Shown here piece by piece: positions 490 to 10,421 of a stretch of DNA of 64,000 bases. Made by a program: the position numbers and the translations under genes. Each line of letters starts with the position of its first letter. Position 1 is the first letter of the stretch. Below the pieces are notes generated by a model. That model was not told the DNA's origin and searched no databases. It saw only the letters and a program-made list of their open reading frames with translations. This DNA comes from Acidipila rosea (GTDB lineage: Bacteria > Acidobacteriota > Terriglobia > Terriglobales > Acidobacteriaceae): NCBI RefSeq assembly GCF_004339725.1, contig NZ_SMGK01000004.1:1-64000 (forward strand), read 5' to 3'.

Positions 490-1314
490 TTATGCTCCAA
501 TAGCGCCAGGGTGCTCTAGCACGGACATGTACTGCCTCGACTGCACTTCCACGGTGCCAAAGTCGGGAGAAGATAGCTCAACAGGCGTGGTGCAGAGAAG
601 TTCGTCACTGACGATGACCCCATGCTGAATGACCGCTTGCCCCGACCAGTGGGCTCTTCCAAATCTCGTCGCCACTTTGTAGATCTTGCTATCTTTCTTG
701 ACAGATGCGGTCTCATGGGTTCCCTCGTATGGCCCCACTCCATCTCCTTCGCGCTTCAGAACAACAATGCCATTCACCTTATCGACAGAAATCACCGTGA
801 CCGTTTGTGTGCCTGGGGGGCCTAGCTCCCAAGGCTGGCTTAGAGTCACGGTCCATGTCTCTCCCGCTTTCAGTTCGCCTTGCGGGGTGCCCCAGAACGT
901 GGGGTTGTAGAAGGGGCCGCTCGCATTTGTGTCGAGGCTGCACTTGCCACCGTAGCAGGTAGTAGTCCCGTGGTCCCGGTATTCGCCTTCCACATTCTTT
1001 AGCACGCGCTTGCCGTCCATCCGAACATCCGCCTTCCAGCGGATGATGTCTGAGGAGGGACTCGACTGGAAGATATAAGTACCTGTCGCGGGCAGCGTCA
1101 CGACACTATCCTCTATGCCGGTTCCGTAGAGAGAGATGACGCGATATGTGATGAAGCTCAGGGTTTGACCGGCTGAGAGATGAGGGCTCAGGTAGAAACC
1201 AGCGTCGGCTTCTGCCTTCTTATTTTGCCTCGCGTGACACGTCACGGCGCTCATGATTGCTATCAGCAGGACCGCCACTGTTCCTAGTTTCTTGCTTACA
1301 ACGTGCATGCGCAT
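490..1314 (-). CDS. Exported protein of unknown function
   Basis: 274 residues. The N terminus has a basic start, a hydrophobic stretch (residues 11-25) and a likely signal peptidase site near ACHA/RQN, so the protein is probably secreted or periplasmic. The mature part looks beta-rich, with several Gly-Thr-Trp strands (GETWTVTLSQPWELG) and one close Cys pair (CYGGKC). No known family was recognised. It lies 103 bases downstream of the glycine-zipper gene on the same strand and may be cotranscribed with it. Both belong to the integrated element. An alternative start is the second Met (1308). Confidence 0.6.
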   Translation of the reverse strand: MRMHVVSKKLGTVAVLLIAIMSAVTCHARQNKKAEADAGFYLSPHLSAGQTLSFITYRVISLYGTGIEDSVVTLPATGTYIFQSSPSSDIIRWKADVRMDGKRVLKNVEGEYRDHGTTTCYGGKCSLDTNASGPFYNPTFWGTPQGELKAGETWTVTLSQPWELGPPGTQTVTVISVDKVNGIVVLKREGDGVGPYEGTHETASVKKDSKIYKVATRFGRAHWSGQAVIQHGVIVSDELLCTTPVELSSPDFGTVEVQSRQYMSVLEHPGAIGA

Positions 1315-1417: not shown

Positions 1418-2329
1418 CTACGGTGTATCCCCTCGCACATAAAGAACAGGCTCTCCGCGCCGAAAGCCCTGGGAAAGCCGTGCCGCTTCCTTCTCCATTA
1501 GCGGCTTCACGCTGATGGGACTCGCCAAATAGAAATCCATTTGCGATTCGGCCGGAAGAGTAACCGTAGGGCCAGGAGTCGCCGCAGACGTGAGGGCTCC
1601 CACCCCAGCGCCCAAAGCTGCGCCAGTCCCCATGCCAGCGAGTTTGCCGACTGCGGTAGTTTCTCCTTTGGCACTCCCACTAAAAACGCCACCGACGATA
1701 GCTCCGATAACAGCTCCGCCTTTAATTTTTGTCTCTGTCGGTTTACTTTTGCTGGTTCCCTCGACACGAAATTGGTAGGCATATAAGGGATAGCTCTGTT
1801 TCCCAAGATCGAGGGATGTGAGCCGAAGGATGAGATCCGGGCTGCCAGTCAGCGTGCCCGCTTTCTTGGCTCCGACAACTTCGCCATGAATGGTCGCCCC
1901 TCGGGGTATGACTAGCATGTTGTCCACGATCACGTCTTCGCTCAACGTAAAGAGAACTGGCTGGCCTCCCTTTGAGTATCGGCTGCTCAGAGGTTGATCC
2001 GTTCGGACACGCAGCAGTGTGTTCTCCAGCACCGTGACAAAGACATTTGGGTTAGAAGGGACTAGCGCCTGAGTCGGCTCAGATTGAGAGGATGAAGACT
2101 GCTGCTGCGCAGGAGTGTCCGCTTGAGACGAGGGCAGTGCATGGGTCGAAGGTGCGTCAGGCAGAGACTCTTTCAACGCGGCATCAGGCGAAGGGGTGGG
2201 AGCCATCTGCTGAGCCTGAATTGATACACCCGCTGAAGCCAACAACAGCGCGATGGCCGCAAAATCGGATGGAGTAACGCTGGCTCGTTTCCACATCAAA
2301 ATCCTCATCATGCGCCTCGGCAAAGGCAT
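1418..2329 (-). CDS. Exported glycine-zipper envelope protein with LPDAPS motif
   Basis: 303 residues. A hydrophobic N-terminal segment (residues 23-38, ending AQAQQ) suggests export. An LPDAPS motif follows (56-61), then a Ser/Gln-rich linker. The central part (about 95-195) resembles a small beta domain with the phrase VIPRGATIHGEV, as seen in conjugation and outer-membrane-associated proteins. It is followed by a glycine zipper (repeated GxxxG, about 200-250) that could insert in or lie on a membrane. Starts at 2329, 2311, 2308 and 2296 are all possible and none has a clear ribosome site. A copy of the three-fold promoter module lies upstream at 2507-2437 on this strand. The exact function is unknown. 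Confidence 0.6.
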   Translation of the reverse strand: MPLPRRMMRILMWKRASVTPSDFAAIALLLASAGVSIQAQQMAPTPSPDAALKESLPDAPSTHALPSSQADTPAQQQSSSSQSEPTQALVPSNPNVFVTVLENTLLRVRTDQPLSSRYSKGGQPVLFTLSEDVIVDNMLVIPRGATIHGEVVGAKKAGTLTGSPDLILRLTSLDLGKQSYPLYAYQFRVEGTSKSKPTETKIKGGAVIGAIVGGVFSGSAKGETTAVGKLAGMGTGAALGAGVGALTSAATPGPTVTLPAESQMDFYLASPISVKPLMEKEAARLSQGFRRGEPVLYVRGDTP

Positions 2330-2436: not shown

Positions 2437-2507
2437 AAGTCTAATGAAAAGACATGGCTAACGAATCGGCCATCGGCAGGAGGAGTTGTCTCCTACTTCT
2501 GGGGGAG
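2437..2507 (-). promoter_or_regulatory. Repeated promoter/operator module, copy C (leftward)
   Basis: Read on the minus strand from 2507, it has CTCCCCCA, 2 bases, AGTA, 1 base, GAGA, then CTCC at offset 26-29 and GCCGAT at offset 38-43, the same spacing as the copies at 2587 and 5953. The TAGA-like element at offset 65-68 is weaker than in the other two. The first 18 bases also form an imperfect CTCC/GGAG dyad. It points at the glycine-zipper gene, whose start is about 100 bases past the predicted transcription start. Confidence 0.6.
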
Positions 2508-2586
2508 GAGTGAGAATTTGAAGCCTCCGTAGCAGTACCGCTGTGCCACCCTTCTGCGAGGCCCCCTGATTGGGCACTTGGCAAGT

Positions 2587-2657
2587 CTCCCCCAGGAGTA
2601 GGAGAGTGAGTCTCCGACTAACAGCCGATTCGCTATACGTCCCTCTTCGATAGAGTC
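2587..2657 (+). promoter_or_regulatory. Repeated promoter/operator module, copy A (rightward)
   Basis: CTCCCCCA-N2-AGTA-N-GAGA at 2587-2605 is followed by CTCC at 2612-2615, GCCGAT at 2624-2629 and GATAGAGTC at 2649-2657. All offsets equal those of the copy at 5953. The GTG start of the TolC-like gene lies 11 bases after GATAGAGTC, with no Shine-Dalgarno sequence. Confidence 0.65.
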
Positions 2658-2667
2658 AGACAAAGCC

Positions 2668-4035
2668 GTGGCTAGCAGAATTAAAATAGCGACATCGGGC
2701 TTCTGGTCTGCTTTGAGGTTAGCGGCGCTGCTAGCCGCCTCGACCCTATTTCTCTCTGCCCCACCCGTAACAGCGCAGACATCGTTCAACTCTGCGATTG
2801 GCCTTGCACTCAAGAGCGACCCTCGAATTAAGCTCGCCGAAGATGACGTGCATAAAGCTGAAGTGAATCTTGAGACCCTGAAAGCAGCTTTCGTGCCGAG
2901 TATATCCGGCAACATCGGCGCTGGCCCCTCTTACGGCATCACCACAAGCGTTCCGACGATATTCACGCTTCATGCTCAATCGCTGATAATGAACTCTTCT
3001 CAACTTGGATTCATCAGAGCCGCGCACGCGGGCATTGATGCGTCCAAGGCGTCTCTTCGGGACATCAAAGAACAGGTCGAAGAGGATGTCGCCATATCCT
3101 ACCTATCGCTATGCGAAGCGCAGGAGAAGAACACAGTGCTAGAAGAGGAACTGGAACACGCTCAGAGGTTGGCAACGATTCTTGAAGAGCGAGTATCTGC
3201 CGGTGAAAATTCAGAGATGGAATTGAAGCAAACTAGGCGCACATTGCTCCAGGTCCAGCTACAGCGGCTCCAAGGGAACGACCAAATGGCGTCGCTCCGC
3301 AATCATTTATCACAACTCTTAGGTATTCCAACCGAACAGTTGGAGATAGCCTCCTCTACAATCCCACCCGTTCCTTCGTTCGATCTGGCTGGGCAAAACA
3401 CCGAAGTGCATGACTTCGACACACCCAGCATCGTATCCGCAGAAGCGGATGCCCACTCAAAGAGCGAACAAGCCAGAGCGGATTCTCACTATACATGGAG
3501 GCCACAAATCGGATTCGCTGCAGAGTATGGTCGCATCAGTCCATTCAACGGCGCGTCCACCTACTACAACCTGAACGGCAACTACAACACGGCCTACGCC
3601 GCTGTCCAGGTTCAGATTCCATTTTTTGATAAAACGCACAAGGCTAACGCCCGCGCAGCACTCATTGAGGCACAACACGCGGCGCATACCGTCCAACTCT
3701 TACGCGATCAGCAACAGAACGCCAGCGTTGATCTTCGCCATTCGATAGAGGAACTATCGGTTAAGGAGCAGCTTGCTGTCGTCGATCAAGGGCTTGCCAA
3801 CGATCAGCTCAATATAGTCCTCGTGCAACTTCAAGCAGGCAGCGGACGCAAAGGGGTAGCGCCCATGACTCCCATAGACGAGCAGAAGGCGCGTATCCAG
3901 GAACGGATCGACTATATGGGAGTTCTTGACGACCGCCTACAGTTGCAAGAATCGGAGATACGGCTGCTGCGACAGACCGGGAGCCTTCAGAACTGGATAG
4001 ACTCTGCGATCTCATCTGCGACTCCAAGCAAATGA
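2668..4035 (+). CDS. TolC-like outer-membrane efflux protein
   Basis: 455 residues, the usual size for TolC/OprM-type proteins. These form trimeric outer-membrane ducts for tripartite efflux or secretion. A signal peptide (about 1-36, ending VTAQT) precedes the opening SFNSAIGLALKSDPRIKLAEDDVHKAEVNLE, typical of the family (alternate helix, 'ALxxNPxIxxAexxvxxAe'). Long amphipathic helical stretches with many Gln, Glu and Ala follow (about 130-240 and 330-440), split by a beta segment (YNTAYAAVQVQIPFFD). The start is GTG. No adaptor or inner-membrane pump gene is adjacent, so its partner must lie elsewhere. It carries copy A of the shared promoter module and is probably controlled by the two-component pair beside it. 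Confidence 0.85.
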   Translation: MASRIKIATSGFWSALRLAALLAASTLFLSAPPVTAQTSFNSAIGLALKSDPRIKLAEDDVHKAEVNLETLKAAFVPSISGNIGAGPSYGITTSVPTIFTLHAQSLIMNSSQLGFIRAAHAGIDASKASLRDIKEQVEEDVAISYLSLCEAQEKNTVLEEELEHAQRLATILEERVSAGENSEMELKQTRRTLLQVQLQRLQGNDQMASLRNHLSQLLGIPTEQLEIASSTIPPVPSFDLAGQNTEVHDFDTPSIVSAEADAHSKSEQARADSHYTWRPQIGFAAEYGRISPFNGASTYYNLNGNYNTAYAAVQVQIPFFDKTHKANARAALIEAQHAAHTVQLLRDQQQNASVDLRHSIEELSVKEQLAVVDQGLANDQLNIVLVQLQAGSGRKGVAPMTPIDEQKARIQERIDYMGVLDDRLQLQESEIRLLRQTGSLQNWIDSAISSATPSK

Positions 4036-4043
4036 GATCAGTA

Positions 4044-4682
4044 TCAGATGTAGCCAATTTCCAGCCCTTTTAGGACCGCACGCACACGATCCCGCACGCC
4101 GAGCTTCGCGAATATGGTCGATGCGTGGGTTTTGATGGTAGCTTCCGTCACTCCCAGGCTTTCCGCAATCTCCTTGTTGCTCAATCCCGCTGTCATGAGC
4201 GACAGAACCTCCGCCTCTTTCTTTGTGAGAGGTTCGGGAAGATCCAAGCTCTCGAATTTTGGCTGCAATGCTTCGAGGCCGGAGCGTGCGGTGCGTGTCA
4301 CAGAAGGTCGGAAGACACGCTCGCCGTTCATCACCTTGTCGATGCAGGATGTCAGTTCCGCTAGGCTGGAATCCTTGCGGAGAAAACCATTTGCTCCCGC
4401 TTGGATTGCTCGAAAGAATGTCTCATCGTCATCAAAGGTCGTTACGAGAATGATTGGAGTTGTTAGTCCTTTATCTCGTACCTCTTTAAGGACATCCACG
4501 CCCGATTTTCCGGGCAGGCGTACATCCATGAGCACTACATCAGAAGGAACGCTCATTAAAACGTCAACTGCATGGATACCGTCTTCGGCCTGCCCCACGA
4601 TGTCATACGCAGGATTTAGCTTTAGCAGCTCGCATAGGCCGAGCCGCACCAATGTCTCATCTTCTACCACCAGGATTTTCAT
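4044..4682 (-). CDS. NarL/LuxR-family response regulator
   Basis: 212 residues. The receiver domain (1-120) has the acidic pocket VVEDE (7-8) and phospho-acceptor Asp53 in VLMDVRLPG. A LuxR-type helix-turn-helix (about 145-210) shows LTKKEAEVLSLMTAGLSNKEIAESLGVTEATIKTH in scattered match. Its ATG overlaps the TGA of the upstream kinase gene by four bases, so the pair is translationally coupled. The three copies of a dyad-bearing promoter module in the two flanking intergenic regions are the obvious candidate binding sites. NarL-type regulators bind short inverted repeats, which fits the CTCC...GGAG symmetry, but the link is inferred. Confidence 0.92.
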   Translation of the reverse strand: MKILVVEDETLVRLGLCELLKLNPAYDIVGQAEDGIHAVDVLMSVPSDVVLMDVRLPGKSGVDVLKEVRDKGLTTPIILVTTFDDDETFFRAIQAGANGFLRKDSSLAELTSCIDKVMNGERVFRPSVTRTARSGLEALQPKFESLDLPEPLTKKEAEVLSLMTAGLSNKEIAESLGVTEATIKTHASTIFAKLGVRDRVRAVLKGLEIGYI

Positions 4683-5899
4683 GCCACCTCTCCCTTCTCG
4701 ATGGGGATCGTCACACTCACTGCGAAGCCAGAAGCCGGTAGCAAGGGAAACTCCAGCGCTCCGCGCATCTCTTTTGCCCTGGAGTCGATACCATTTAGGC
4801 CGTTGCCTTTCGTCAGCGCTCCGCAGCCGCGTCCATCGTCCCTGATCGCGAGCCGCACGCTTTCCTTGTTCCGTGTGAGTTCAACCCAAAGATTGTGCGC
4901 TTCGGAGTGCCGCAACACATTGGTGATAGCTTCTTGGGCACAGCGATAAAGTCCGTGAGCAATCGACGGCGGTATGTCCGTCATATTGCCCTGGACCTCA
5001 AGATGAGTACGAACGCCGCTGACATCATGGAGCATTTGCTTCAGGGCAATCGAAAGGTCTCGTATGTCTTCCTCGCGCCAAGCCGAGACGGATTCTCGAA
5101 TCTCGGCCAATAGAACGCGATTAATCAGTTGTGCCCTTGCGATGGCCGGGAGCGCCGCCTCTGCCGCCCGATGCTGCGCAATCTCTAGTTGTATGCCAAG
5201 AGTTGTGAGGTAGTGACCAGCCGCATCGTGCAGCTCTCTGGACAGCCGATACCGTTCCTCGAACTTTGCCGACTCTTTAATCTCTGCTTGCAATGTAATC
5301 AATTCGCCATTCGACACAGCGAGTTCGTGTTGCCGCTTTGCTAGCTCGAAAAGCAGACATGCACCCAGAAATGCGAAACCGTACCAGACATAATTCTGGC
5401 CGATCACAACGACCGCCACAGCCAACCTGGCAGGCGAATGAAGAATTTGGTTCCAGAAGGGAGCCGCCTGGTGCCTGAATATGTACATGCGCCCTATCCA
5501 GCCAGCAAAAGTGCAAATTACAGCGATCCCACACCAGCGCAATCGTCGCTTCACAGGCACGCAGAACGGGATACAAAACACCGATAAGTTCGTAAGGTCG
5601 AGGCTAAGCATTACGCCAAGCAAGATTTGAGGAAGCAGCCATCGTTCGCGGTGAGGTGCGAGATTGACGCGGATTGGAATGTTCTTCACGTACAGAAATG
5701 CGTACACGAATGCGCCGCATACTTTGAGCCAAAACAAGGGAGCCAGTGTTCCACGAATGGACACGGGGCCGGTCTGCGCTTCCACGATGACTTCGAGGAG
5801 CGCGATGAGAAAGCCACCCCAGCGCAACCAGAAGAATAGTGGCTTTCCAAACACCATGTACGTACCGTAAGAAAAATCGACCTGCTCCGCATCGGCCAT
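4679..5899 (-). CDS. Membrane sensor histidine kinase, DesK/NarX (HisKA_3) type
   Basis: 406 residues. About six membrane segments (roughly 12-190) form a sensor without a sizeable periplasmic domain, as in DesK-like kinases that sense the membrane or a small ligand. A short coiled-coil linker leads to the HisKA_3 dimerisation domain, with phospho-acceptor His224 in RLSRELHDAAGHYL. The ATP-binding domain follows, with AQEAITNVLRHS (N box), DDGRGC and KGNGLNGID (G boxes). It is coupled to the downstream response regulator by an ATGA overlap. The stimulus is unknown. Its own promoter was not recognised in the 53 bases before copy B of the module. Confidence 0.92.
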   Translation of the reverse strand: MADAEQVDFSYGTYMVFGKPLFFWLRWGGFLIALLEVIVEAQTGPVSIRGTLAPLFWLKVCGAFVYAFLYVKNIPIRVNLAPHRERWLLPQILLGVMLSLDLTNLSVFCIPFCVPVKRRLRWCGIAVICTFAGWIGRMYIFRHQAAPFWNQILHSPARLAVAVVVIGQNYVWYGFAFLGACLLFELAKRQHELAVSNGELITLQAEIKESAKFEERYRLSRELHDAAGHYLTTLGIQLEIAQHRAAEAALPAIARAQLINRVLLAEIRESVSAWREEDIRDLSIALKQMLHDVSGVRTHLEVQGNMTDIPPSIAHGLYRCAQEAITNVLRHSEAHNLWVELTRNKESVRLAIRDDGRGCGALTKGNGLNGIDSRAKEMRGALEFPLLPASGFAVSVTIPIEKGEVA

Positions 5900-5952
5900 T
5901 AGTCAGAGACTCCCCAACACTTCTTCCAGAATAAGCTTTTGAATATTCATGT

Positions 5953-6023
5953 CTCCCCCAAAAGTATGAGACGACCTCTCCAGCTAGTGGCCGATGTCGG
6001 CGTCGCTGCGTTTGGATAGAGTC
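5953..6023 (+). promoter_or_regulatory. Repeated promoter/operator module, copy B (rightward)
   Basis: CTCCCCCA-N2-AGTA-N-GAGA at 5953-5971, CTCC at 5978-5981, GCCGAT at 5990-5995 and GATAGAGTC at 6015-6023 match copy A without gaps. The ATG of the next gene is at 6029, so TAGAGT (6017-6022) as a -10 element would place the transcription start on or next to the start codon (leaderless mRNA). Confidence 0.65.
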
Positions 6024-6028
6024 GGATC

Positions 6029-7177
6029 ATGAAGGACCAGTCTCCCTCGCATGGACTCGGATGGGCCAGTCAGATGAGCAAAGCAGTCAGCGGATGCAGA
6101 ACAGGGAGACACTGGCGGGCTTGCAGCCCATTCATCTGTCTATTCTTCATTACAGCAGTTATGCACGCCCAAGCCGTATTGAAAGCGGATGCATCGCTGC
6201 CGGAAGCACCGGTCCCTCAGGCGTCCGTGGAGAGTCAGGTAGCTTCCTCAATGCTCACTGGCACGGTCGCGGATGGTGAGGGAGCCATGATTCAAGGCGC
6301 GACGATAACCTTGGAAAATGTAGCAACCCATGACAAACGAACAGCTTTGACTGACGGAAGCGGCTCATTCACCTTTTCTGCGGTGGGGCCGGGTCTCTAT
6401 GCGGCCACGATTGCAGCGAGAGGATTTCAGCCTGTGGTGAAGACGGGAATCTCTGTGCATACCGGGGAGACCTATCAACTGTCGCAAACGACAATGCAGG
6501 TTGCGACTGCGACCACCACTGTGCAGGTCGGTGTGCAGACGCAGTATGAGTTGGCGGAAGCACAGCTTAAAGCGGAGGAGAAACAACGCTTCCTCTGGGT
6601 TGTCCCCAATTTTTACGTCAGTTATCTTCCAAACCCCGCGTCGCTTACCGCAGGTCAGAAGATGCGGCTTGCTCTTCACGCCGCAGTTGATCCGTACCAG
6701 TTCATCAATACCGGCATCAATGCCGGATGGGATCAGGCACGTAATAACTATCCGGGGTATGGGCAAGGTGCGGCGGGTTATGCGCGGCGGTATGGAGCCG
6801 ATTACGGCGACGTCGTATCGGGAACCATTGTGGGCTCGGGGTTGATGCCTGCCTTGCTCCATCAAGACCCTCGCTACTTCTACAAAGGCACAGGAAGCAT
6901 TCCTTCACGCATCGGTTATGCACTATTAGCAATCGTTAGAACGAAGGGCGACAACGGGAAGTGGCAACCGAACTACTCCGGGCTCCTCGGCAACCTAGCC
7001 TCTGGACTCATTGCTAACAGCTATCTTCCAACCGGGGACCGGAAAGCTGTTGGCAATGTAATCGGAGTCACTTTCCAAGGGTTTGCACTTCGAGGAATAG
7101 GCACATTGGAAGAAGAGTTCTTAGCTCGCTGGGTGACCACCCACGCGCGAGATAAGGGAACGATTGGACATCAGTAG
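6029..7177 (+). CDS. Exported carboxypeptidase-regulatory-like domain protein
   Basis: 382 residues. An N-terminal hydrophobic segment (about 32-48, ending MHAQA) is followed by LPEAPV (58-63). Residues about 72-150 form a carboxypeptidase regulatory-like (CarboxypepD_reg) beta-sandwich: LTGTVADGEGAMIQGA, DGSGSFTFSAVGPGLY, VKTGISVHTGET. The C-terminal part (about 185-370) is a block common in Acidobacteriota exported proteins, with Gly/Tyr-rich stretches and RYFYKGTG; its function is unknown. It lacks the TonB receptor barrel that usually follows such a sandwich. The start has no Shine-Dalgarno sequence and sits right after copy B of the promoter module, which suggests control by the adjacent kinase/regulator pair. 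Confidence 0.75.
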   Translation: MKDQSPSHGLGWASQMSKAVSGCRTGRHWRACSPFICLFFITAVMHAQAVLKADASLPEAPVPQASVESQVASSMLTGTVADGEGAMIQGATITLENVATHDKRTALTDGSGSFTFSAVGPGLYAATIAARGFQPVVKTGISVHTGETYQLSQTTMQVATATTTVQVGVQTQYELAEAQLKAEEKQRFLWVVPNFYVSYLPNPASLTAGQKMRLALHAAVDPYQFINTGINAGWDQARNNYPGYGQGAAGYARRYGADYGDVVSGTIVGSGLMPALLHQDPRYFYKGTGSIPSRIGYALLAIVRTKGDNGKWQPNYSGLLGNLASGLIANSYLPTGDRKAVGNVIGVTFQGFALRGIGTLEEEFLARWVTTHARDKGTIGHQ

Positions 7178-8634: not shown

Positions 8635-8665
8635 GGCAAGGATTCGCTTGCGGAGAGGAGTCACT

Positions 8666-8899
8666 ATGTCCGACGAACGAAAGCCACCAGTAAGCGCGGG
8701 AGCACCCGATGGCCGCCCCCGCATCGACCGCGAGCCGTTGCTCGACAGCCATCAGGCGGCGGCCATGCTCAAGGTCCATCCGAGGACACTCCAGAGGCTT
8801 GTCCATCGCGGAGAAATCGCAGCCGTGCATGTCGGCAAACTATGGCGTTTCAAGGCATCTGTGCTGACCGAATGGATCGACAGAGACATCGCCAGTTAA
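8666..8899 (+). CDS. Excisionase-like helix-turn-helix protein (HTH_17 / MerR-like)
   Basis: 77 residues when started at the ATG at 8666, which has GAGAGGAG 6 bases upstream; longer frames lack this. Residues 28-75 form the compact winged helix-turn-helix of excisionase/AlpA-like proteins: DSHQAAAMLKVHPRTLQRLVHRGEIAAVHVGKLWRF read in part. These bind and bend DNA at attachment sites and set recombination direction, or act as small regulators. The gene lies just before the integrase on the same strand, the usual xis-int order in tRNA-integrated elements. Confidence 0.8.
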   Translation: MSDERKPPVSAGAPDGRPRIDREPLLDSHQAAAMLKVHPRTLQRLVHRGEIAAVHVGKLWRFKASVLTEWIDRDIAS

Positions 8900-8933: not shown

Positions 8934-10259
8934 GTGATATTCAGGCATGATGGCGTTACCCTAATGACAGCCATTCGTGCTGTGAAGTCGAGGAGAAATA
9001 CCTTGATTGATCGCACACGATATCAATTCGGAAGTGTCACGCTTAAGAAGCGGGCGAAGGGAGCCGACGTTTGGGAGTTCCGGTACTACGAGACGCAGGC
9101 CGACAATACGAGGAAGCGTAAAGCGACCTTCGTCGGAACCACGAATCAGTACAAGAACAAGTCAGACGCTCGGGTAGCGGTAGAAGCCCTTCTCCTCAAA
9201 CTCAACGAAGAGAAACCTCAGCATCACCTGGGAGCTGTCACCTTCGGCGCAATTTGCGACCGGTACATCGAGGAAGAGTTGCCCGAACGCTACTCCACTC
9301 GCAAGTCGTATCTGTCGAATATCAAGCTGCACATACGCCCGAGGTGGGAAGGCTATCTGCTCCACCAGATCCGGCCCATGGTGGTCGAAGGATGGTTGAA
9401 GAACTTGGACATGGCCCCGAAATCGAAGGCTCATATCCGGAGCGTCATGCACCTGCTGTACGAGTGTGCAGGGCGCTGGGAACTCTTCAACGACCGTCGC
9501 AATCCCATCGAGATGGTCCGTGTGAAGGACAGCACGAAGCGTCGTTTGCGCCCAGCCGTGTTGACTGTGAACGAGTACGAAGCCATCCTCGGGCTGTTGA
9601 AAGAGCCGTACCGAACGATGGTGATTGTTGCGCAATGCCTCGGTCTTCGCGTGAGCGAGATCGCGGCGCTCCAGTGGCAAGACTTCGATTTTGAACGGCA
9701 GCAACTTCTCGTGCAGCGGAGCATCGTGAACGGGAACGTCGATGACGTCAAGACGGAGTATTCACGAGACCATGTACCGCTGCACGAATCTCTGGTCGAG
9801 GTTCTGCTCGCATGGAGTAAGCAAGCCCTGCCGACGGAAGAAGGTTGGGTCTTCGCAAGCCCCCATACGAACAGACCGTATCACCCGACCGACATTCAGA
9901 AGCGGCACATCCGCCCTGCGGGTTTCTGCCTTGCGGCATGCCCGAATTGCGGAGCTGGGATCGGCGTCTGGTGCTCGCAGGATCGACCGACACCGAACGG
10001 CAAGCGGCTGCTCATTCACGATGAGCGTAAGGCGAGTGCCGGGAAGTACAGTCGAATCGGCTGGCATACGTTCCGCCACACGTACCGTACGTGGCTGGAC
10101 GAGACCGGAGCACCGATGAAGGTGCAGCAAGAGTTGATGCGTCACGCGTCGATTCAGACGACCATGAATGTCTACGGACAGGCTATGTCGTCCTCGAAGC
10201 GGGAAGCAAACAGCAAGGTCGTGGAGATGGTGCTCAAGCCAATGAAAGCGAGCGCCTGA
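8934..10259 (+). CDS. Tyrosine recombinase (integrase) with an embedded zinc-finger-like insertion
   Basis: 441 residues from the GTG at 8934; ATG 8964 is an equal or better start, and neither has a clear ribosome site. Domains: an N-terminal arm-binding region (20-90), a SAM-like core-binding domain (about 102-190) and the catalytic domain (about 205-430). Catalytic residues seen are Arg239 (LRVSE), His378 and Arg381 (HTFRHT), His404 (RHAS) and Tyr414 (NVYG), so it should be active. Between the first Arg and the His-x-x-Arg box lies an unusual insertion, Cys336-x2-Cys339-x7-Cys347 with His362 and Arg365, the pattern of small C3H zinc fingers. The gene ends 86 bases from the 3' end of tRNA-fMet, so the element probably uses that tRNA as attachment site. 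Confidence 0.95.
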   Translation: MIFRHDGVTLMTAIRAVKSRRNTLIDRTRYQFGSVTLKKRAKGADVWEFRYYETQADNTRKRKATFVGTTNQYKNKSDARVAVEALLLKLNEEKPQHHLGAVTFGAICDRYIEEELPERYSTRKSYLSNIKLHIRPRWEGYLLHQIRPMVVEGWLKNLDMAPKSKAHIRSVMHLLYECAGRWELFNDRRNPIEMVRVKDSTKRRLRPAVLTVNEYEAILGLLKEPYRTMVIVAQCLGLRVSEIAALQWQDFDFERQQLLVQRSIVNGNVDDVKTEYSRDHVPLHESLVEVLLAWSKQALPTEEGWVFASPHTNRPYHPTDIQKRHIRPAGFCLAACPNCGAGIGVWCSQDRPTPNGKRLLIHDERKASAGKYSRIGWHTFRHTYRTWLDETGAPMKVQQELMRHASIQTTMNVYGQAMSSSKREANSKVVEMVLKPMKASA

Positions 10260-10344
10260 AACCTAGATTTTGCGAATGGGAGTCAGTGGGAGTGAATCGA
10301 GGTTGGTAGCTTCTAAAATTCGACTCGTAACTGATTGATTTGAT

Positions 10345-10421
<77 letters not shown>

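Follow-up and report, generated by a model that had tools for sequence, protein, structure and literature searches.

We analysed a window of 64,000 nucleotides that begins at base 1 of a contig (C4) in the 4.2-Mb genome of Acidipila rosea, referred to below as the host. Near its start, three similar segments, here called modules, each precede a gene, and a membrane histidine kinase and a response regulator are encoded between them (Table 1). The earlier note had reported such a pair between the modules, and the domain scores at 4044-5899 agree with it: the regulator is of the NarL family (Response_reg 6e-25, GerE 1e-18) and the kinase of the HisKA_3 type (HisKA_3 2e-10, HATPase_c 2e-6). The phosphorylatable aspartate of the regulator, D53, is invariant in an alignment of 12 sequences, and RELHD of the kinase is invariant too. 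The solved structures closest to the regulator are of the VraR/LiaR type (5hev) and DesR (4ldz), and the kinase matches LiaS weakly. The protein classes of the three genes behind the modules suggest a role in the envelope. The gene downstream of the glycine-zipper gene is possibly on one transcript with it.

Table 1. Features of the locus, with positions in the window and offsets counted from the module start
Feature	Position	Strand	Remarks
Protein of no Pfam or NCBIfam family	490..1314	-	downstream of glycine-zipper gene, same strand
Glycine-zipper envelope protein	1418..2329	-	predicted target of module 1; resembles L039:5170-5643
Module 1	2507-2437	-	
Module 1 predicted -10 box	2438..2443	-	TAGACT, offset 65
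Module 1 promoter-proximal dyad	2465..2482	-	CTCCTGC CGAT GGCCGAT, centre about -42
Module 1 upstream dyad	2490..2507	-	CTCCCCC AGAA GTAGGAG, centre about -67
Module 2	2587-2657	+	
Module 2 upstream dyad	2587..2604	+	CTCCCCC AGGA GTAGGAG
Module 2 promoter-proximal dyad	2612..2629	+	CTCCGAC TAAC AGCCGAT
Module 2 predicted -10 box	2651..2656	+	TAGAGT, inside GATAGAGTC, offset 65
TolC-like outer membrane efflux protein (OEP)	2668..4035	+	predicted target of module 2
NarL-family response regulator	4044..4682	-	receiver and GerE/LuxR helix-turn-helix; recognition helix EATIKTHASTI
Membrane histidine kinase, HisKA_3 type	4679..5899	-	
Module 3	5953-6023	+	
Module 3 upstream dyad	5953..5970	+	CTCCCCC AAAA GTATGAG
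Module 3 promoter-proximal dyad	5978..5995	+	CTCCAGC TAGT GGCCGAT
Module 3 predicted -10 box	6017..6022	+	TAGAGT, offset 65
Protein with carboxypeptidase-regulatory-like domain	6029..7177	+	predicted target of module 3
HTH_17 protein, excisionase-like	8645..8899	+	of the element
Phage-type (tyrosine) integrase	8934..10259	+	
tRNA-Met	10345..10421	-	probable integration target; other places in the genome carry copies of its 3' half (10327-10389, flank included)

The coordinates, orientation and equal offsets that had been given for the modules proved exact. Over 71 bases they align without gaps, and 36 of the 71 columns are identical, where at least 26 common bases had been claimed; GATAGAGTC is present in the two copies reported, at 2649-2657 (module 2) and 6015-6023 (module 3). 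The 19-base core CTCCCCCANNAGTANGAGA, with up to 3 mismatches allowed, has 4 matches in the window against 0.35 expected, and its exact form occurs in the host genome in the three modules only, the next best place having 2 mismatches. With one mismatch allowed, forward matches to the core in 399 genomes of the class were no commoner than those to a reversed-pattern control. By itself the core is therefore too unspecific, and a profile covering the entire module is required. On the host genome this profile gave E values of 1e-13 to 9e-13 for the three modules and 0.46 for the next place, that is, no further strong site in the 4.2 Mb.

Each module is built from one heptamer, which forms two inverted repeats in succession, each of the form 7-4-7. 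In the window the dyads have the consensus CTCCsCC-N4-GnnGGAG, then nTCCGnC-N4-nGCCGAT; across the aligned sites of relatives it is CTCCsCC-N4-GnnGGAG and, 6-7 bases on, nTYCGnC-N4-nGCnGAT. The upstream motif overall reads CTCCsCCAnAAGTnGGAG. When the profile of heptamer 1 was run along both strands of the module, the three highest-scoring windows other than heptamer 1 itself were heptamers 2, 4 and 3 (scores of 0.655, 0.612 and 0.597 with the enlarged set of sites, the next window reaching 0.503). The double 7-4-7 arrangement was attained by none of 20000 column permutations and an equally good third-best window anywhere by 1 of 4000; since the layout had been spotted by eye ahead of its statistical test, these figures express its strength and are not a blind test. 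The CTCC and GCCGAT of the earlier note are accordingly real as sequences and do not stand apart, being heptamers 3 and 4 of one repeated pattern.

Of the 22 sites of testable length, 21 have a [TC]AnnnT box downstream of the dyads, at offset 63-66 from the module start, as the best of 20 positions in a scan weighted towards an offset of about 64; the exception, L230, has GACACT at 63. The start codon is mostly 76-81 nt from the module start in the aligned sites. At three loci (L226, L228 and L229) it is found farther downstream behind a Shine-Dalgarno-like leader, and the box stays in place. Because the offset of yAnnnT is constant even where the start codon shifts, GATAGAGTC is read as containing a -10 box, and its reading as a ribosome-binding or operator block was replaced. 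The block has its two copies, as stated before, and is taken to be a -10 region, of which the minus-strand copy carries the equivalent TAGACT at equal offset.

We predict the modules to be promoters, with +1 near 2431(-), 2663(+) and 6029(+); for the genes behind modules 2 and 3 this is at the start codon or very close to it. For module 3 the predicted +1 is the A of the ATG at 6029, which would make the gene leaderless; TANNNT boxes about 12 bases ahead of start codons are a mark of leaderless bacterial genes (PMC3160421). For module 1 the gene starts about 100 nt past the predicted +1, behind a leader. Assuming that +1 lies seven bases past the -10 box, the dyads would be centred at about -67 and about -42, which is the classical position of an activator. 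This geometry bears on two other readings. The CTCC and GGAG arms could pair as a hairpin, and the element might then work as RNA, in a leader hairpin or a riboswitch, rather than as DNA; the conserved blocks, however, lie upstream of the predicted transcript, because the -10 box is downstream of them, and this reading, to which we assign almost no weight, was dropped once the box had been located. It is also improbable that the regulator binds the modules as a repressor, with the kinase mainly relieving repression. Some NarL-family regulators do both and the second dyad abuts the -35 region, but a poor -35, an intact -10 and dyads centred at about -67 and -42 together make up the layout of promoters that depend on an activator, and a repressor would more often overlie the -10 or the +1.

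Among the 399 genomes of the class, kinase matches with E<1e-50 were found in the host and in a single further family, the Bryobacteraceae (11 genomes), whose orthologous pairs have kinases of 31-36% identity. Neither the class genomes nor wider relatives nor plasmids yielded a kinase exceeding about 36% identity across most of its length, and the plasmid search gave distant kinases only. Kinase relatives in Myxococcota, Burkholderiales and others have no convincing module alongside. At most Bryobacteraceae kinase loci a diverged module stands beside the pair with the same offsets, mostly before a divergent serine hydrolase of the beta-lactamase fold. This hydrolase is the commonest divergent neighbour (L035, L036, L038, L040, L041, L042 and L043); the copy that was tested, from L040, has the Solibacter C-terminal domain TIGR03437. 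It is likely the older target of the pair. At L039 a module also precedes a glycine-zipper gene that resembles the glycine-zipper target in the window (E 2e-4), and at L042 a module precedes a gene for a legume-lectin-type protein. At one further locus (L231, genome G057) the kinase ortholog is broken by a stop codon and no operator was recognised; it is probably a decaying copy.

A module profile using sequence only was run on 237 Bryobacteraceae genomes and on 300 genomes of the host's family. Matches with E<1e-8 occurred in 8 Bryobacteraceae genomes, every one with a kinase match, and none of the 218 Bryobacteraceae genomes lacking a kinase match had a module match with E<1e-4. As the training sites fed the profile, strong matches among them express fit, and only held-out sites are predictions. 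There are two of these. The first (G520, E 3.3e-5) stands beside a 36% kinase ortholog, before a carboxypeptidase-regulatory/TonB-plug gene; the second (G326, contig C85, E 8.9e-11) stands before a glycine-zipper gene on a contig other than that of the pair. The window has targets of both kinds as well. The G326 module lies in one intergenic region between divergent glycine-zipper and legume-lectin genes (L148 966-2852), and the homolog of this lectin gene in L042 is likewise preceded by a module. The G326 site is unlinked to the pair, so the regulon need not be local. In the host's family, genome G553 has a partial module match (L174/L189, C12:414473-414523, E 1.8e-7), between genes that by eye are threonine-dehydratase-like and multihaem-cytochrome-like.

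The modules are, on these comparisons, very probably the promoters of a small local regulon, activator-dependent and run by the adjacent kinase/regulator pair. The earlier note had proposed a small closed regulon around the pair and had raised the possibility that the module moves with it. The module does accompany the kinase/regulator orthologs across genomes and families, and in Bryobacteraceae the refuting condition set by the earlier note, a motif at many unrelated genes in genomes that lack the pair, did not arise, with strong matches in 0 of 218 genomes without the kinase; "closed" holds for the host genome, with its three strong sites only, and fails for G326, with its unlinked site. 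That three copies stand within 3.6 kb, with GATAGAGTC common to modules 2 and 3, could instead mean that a small mobile repeat has multiplied or that one promoter segment has been duplicated. Yet conservation is limited to the two dyads and the -10 box, most spacers drift, and the same layout stands beside orthologous pairs in other families; with only three strong copies in the genome as well, we dropped this reading as extremely unlikely.

The operator varies with the recognition helix of the regulator. Regulators with an EATxK[TSA]H helix have heptamers of the TCC kind. Where the helix is EGxxKN[QH], the module keeps its place and its heptamers are of a GTG kind (CTGTGCC GAAA GTCACAT ... 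GCACAT), in which heptamers 1, 2 and 4 are altered and heptamer 3 is not evident; the dyad statistics of this class are weaker (49 of 20000 permutations). One regulator, that of L225, with the helix EGTIKAHAS, has the intermediate heptamer CTCTGCC. The helix change at issue is T, S or A against N at the residue after the conserved lysine. In NarL, the residue after the helix lysine contacts DNA; a search of the literature on DNA contact by this residue gave nothing usable. Mapped on the tree of regulators, the two classes require two switches (one is also possible), because the distant regulators of L044 and L190 again carry the TCC kind. This covariation of helix and operator, resting on about two changes in the tree, is suggestive, and it supports our inference that the adjacent regulator binds the modules.

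The two distant regulators belong to a related subfamily, paired with a propeller-type kinase. They come from two families of the class (genomes G265, at L044, and G635, at L190), share 81% identity with each other and about one third with the regulator of the window, and a similar operator lies directly after the regulator gene (7479-7567 in L044). In G265 this operator precedes a short ORF that is DoxX-like by eye; no Pfam family matched it. The host genome itself has several regulators of the propeller-kinase subfamily (33-54% identity to the L190 query), so cross-binding of the modules is possible. It might even be that the modules are operators of such a chromosomal NarL-family paralogue, with the adjacent pair a mere neighbour, as both the presence of these regulators in the host and the similar operator of the subfamily in other genomes would allow. 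We hold this unlikely, given that the module follows the orthologs of the adjacent pair across genomes and families, was not found in the Bryobacteraceae genomes without the kinase, and belongs to an operator class that changes with the recognition helix of the regulator next to it.

With the adjacent pair as the controlling system, a membrane kinase of the DesK/LiaS kind would phosphorylate its NarL-family regulator, which would bind both 7-4-7 repeats of the heptamer nTCCnnC, probably as two dimers, one on the dyad centred at about -67 and the other at about -42, abutting the -35 region. From there the bound regulator would recruit RNA polymerase; the promoter has a poor -35, and its -10 is of the form yAnnnT. 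The output would be the glycine-zipper, TolC-like outer membrane and carboxypeptidase-regulatory-domain proteins, and the role of the regulon is probably envelope maintenance or stress response. In addition, the divergent kinase operon may be tuned through module 3.

Operators of this kind are already known. The SsrB site of Salmonella is a 7-4-7 palindrome of 18 bp, with heptamers tail to tail and a 4-bp spacer, and the footprint at the ssrA-ssrB promoter holds two copies of it (PMC2837388). At the level of sequence, the dyads of the window share the 18-bp 7-4-7 inverted-repeat layout; however, the SsrB heptamer has another sequence and its regulon is large and enterobacterial, whereas in the window two dyads at fixed spacing precede every target. 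In Bacillus subtilis, ComA recognises an inverted repeat spaced by 4 nt together with a second pair of elements closer to the promoter, and these serve two kinds of activation (PMC4797271). The modules likewise have an upstream inverted repeat with a 4-base spacer and a second pair nearer the promoter, but the ComA elements are hexamers (TTGCGG), of which the second pair forms a direct repeat, while that of the modules is inverted. The window resembles the LiaSR/VraSR/CesR systems in its VraR/LiaR-type regulator, the weak LiaS match of its kinase and its envelope-related targets. It differs in the operator, CTCCsCCAnAAGTnGGAG against the LiaR/CesR motif TCAGHCTnnAGDCTGA, and both the 25-bp streptococcal LiaR motif and the lactococcal CesR motif are unlike it; no LiaF/VraT-like accessory partner was noticed among the window ORFs read. 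With DesK/DesR it has in common a HisKA_3 membrane kinase and a NarL-family regulator, but there is no desaturase target and the regulator scored closer to VraR/LiaR. A limited literature search found no description of the operator sequence, of a double 7-4-7 at fixed promoter spacing or of the host group, in line with the "undescribed operator" of the earlier note. The locus is best read as a new two-component system, NarL/LiaR-like, whose operator has the same kind of construction as the SsrB and ComA sites.

Acidobacteriota are a dominant soil phylum with hardly any known regulator-operator pairs, and a limited search for such pairs found no relevant paper. Here, sequence alone yields a testable operator, a promoter geometry and a short list of targets. 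The targets differ, being the glycine-zipper, TolC-like and carboxypeptidase-regulatory proteins in the host and mostly the beta-lactamase-fold hydrolase elsewhere; a constant operator with changing targets suggests re-wiring by the setting of new genes under one promoter design. With their matching helices, the two operator classes are a natural experiment on how regulator and half-site specificity change together. We propose, with some reserve, that the kinase/regulator pair may be a portable Acidobacteriota cassette, whose promoter-operator of about 76 bp is re-used before different genes in different lineages and whose DNA specificity is re-set through the recognition helix, the half-sites changing in parallel from TCC to GTG and with a probable change back.

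In the host genome the regulon sits on a mobile element, an integrative element at tRNA-Met. The earlier note had suggested a mobile element, which is supported by an integrase that abuts tRNA-Met and by displaced copies of the 3' half of this tRNA, at C6:255197-255259 (63 bp, 95%) and C9:15679-15729 (51 bp, 96%). The C6 copy is 7.1 kb from the end of its contig and the window starts at base 1 of C4, which fits an element that would run from C6 into C4, its junction lying between assembled contigs. Two displaced copies suggest more than one insertion at tRNA-Met. The probable far part of the element, at the end of C6 (L223 5366-12268), carries by eye a HigB/HigA-like toxin-antitoxin pair and a ParB-like gene, and the window opens inside a ParB-like C-terminus (36-302).
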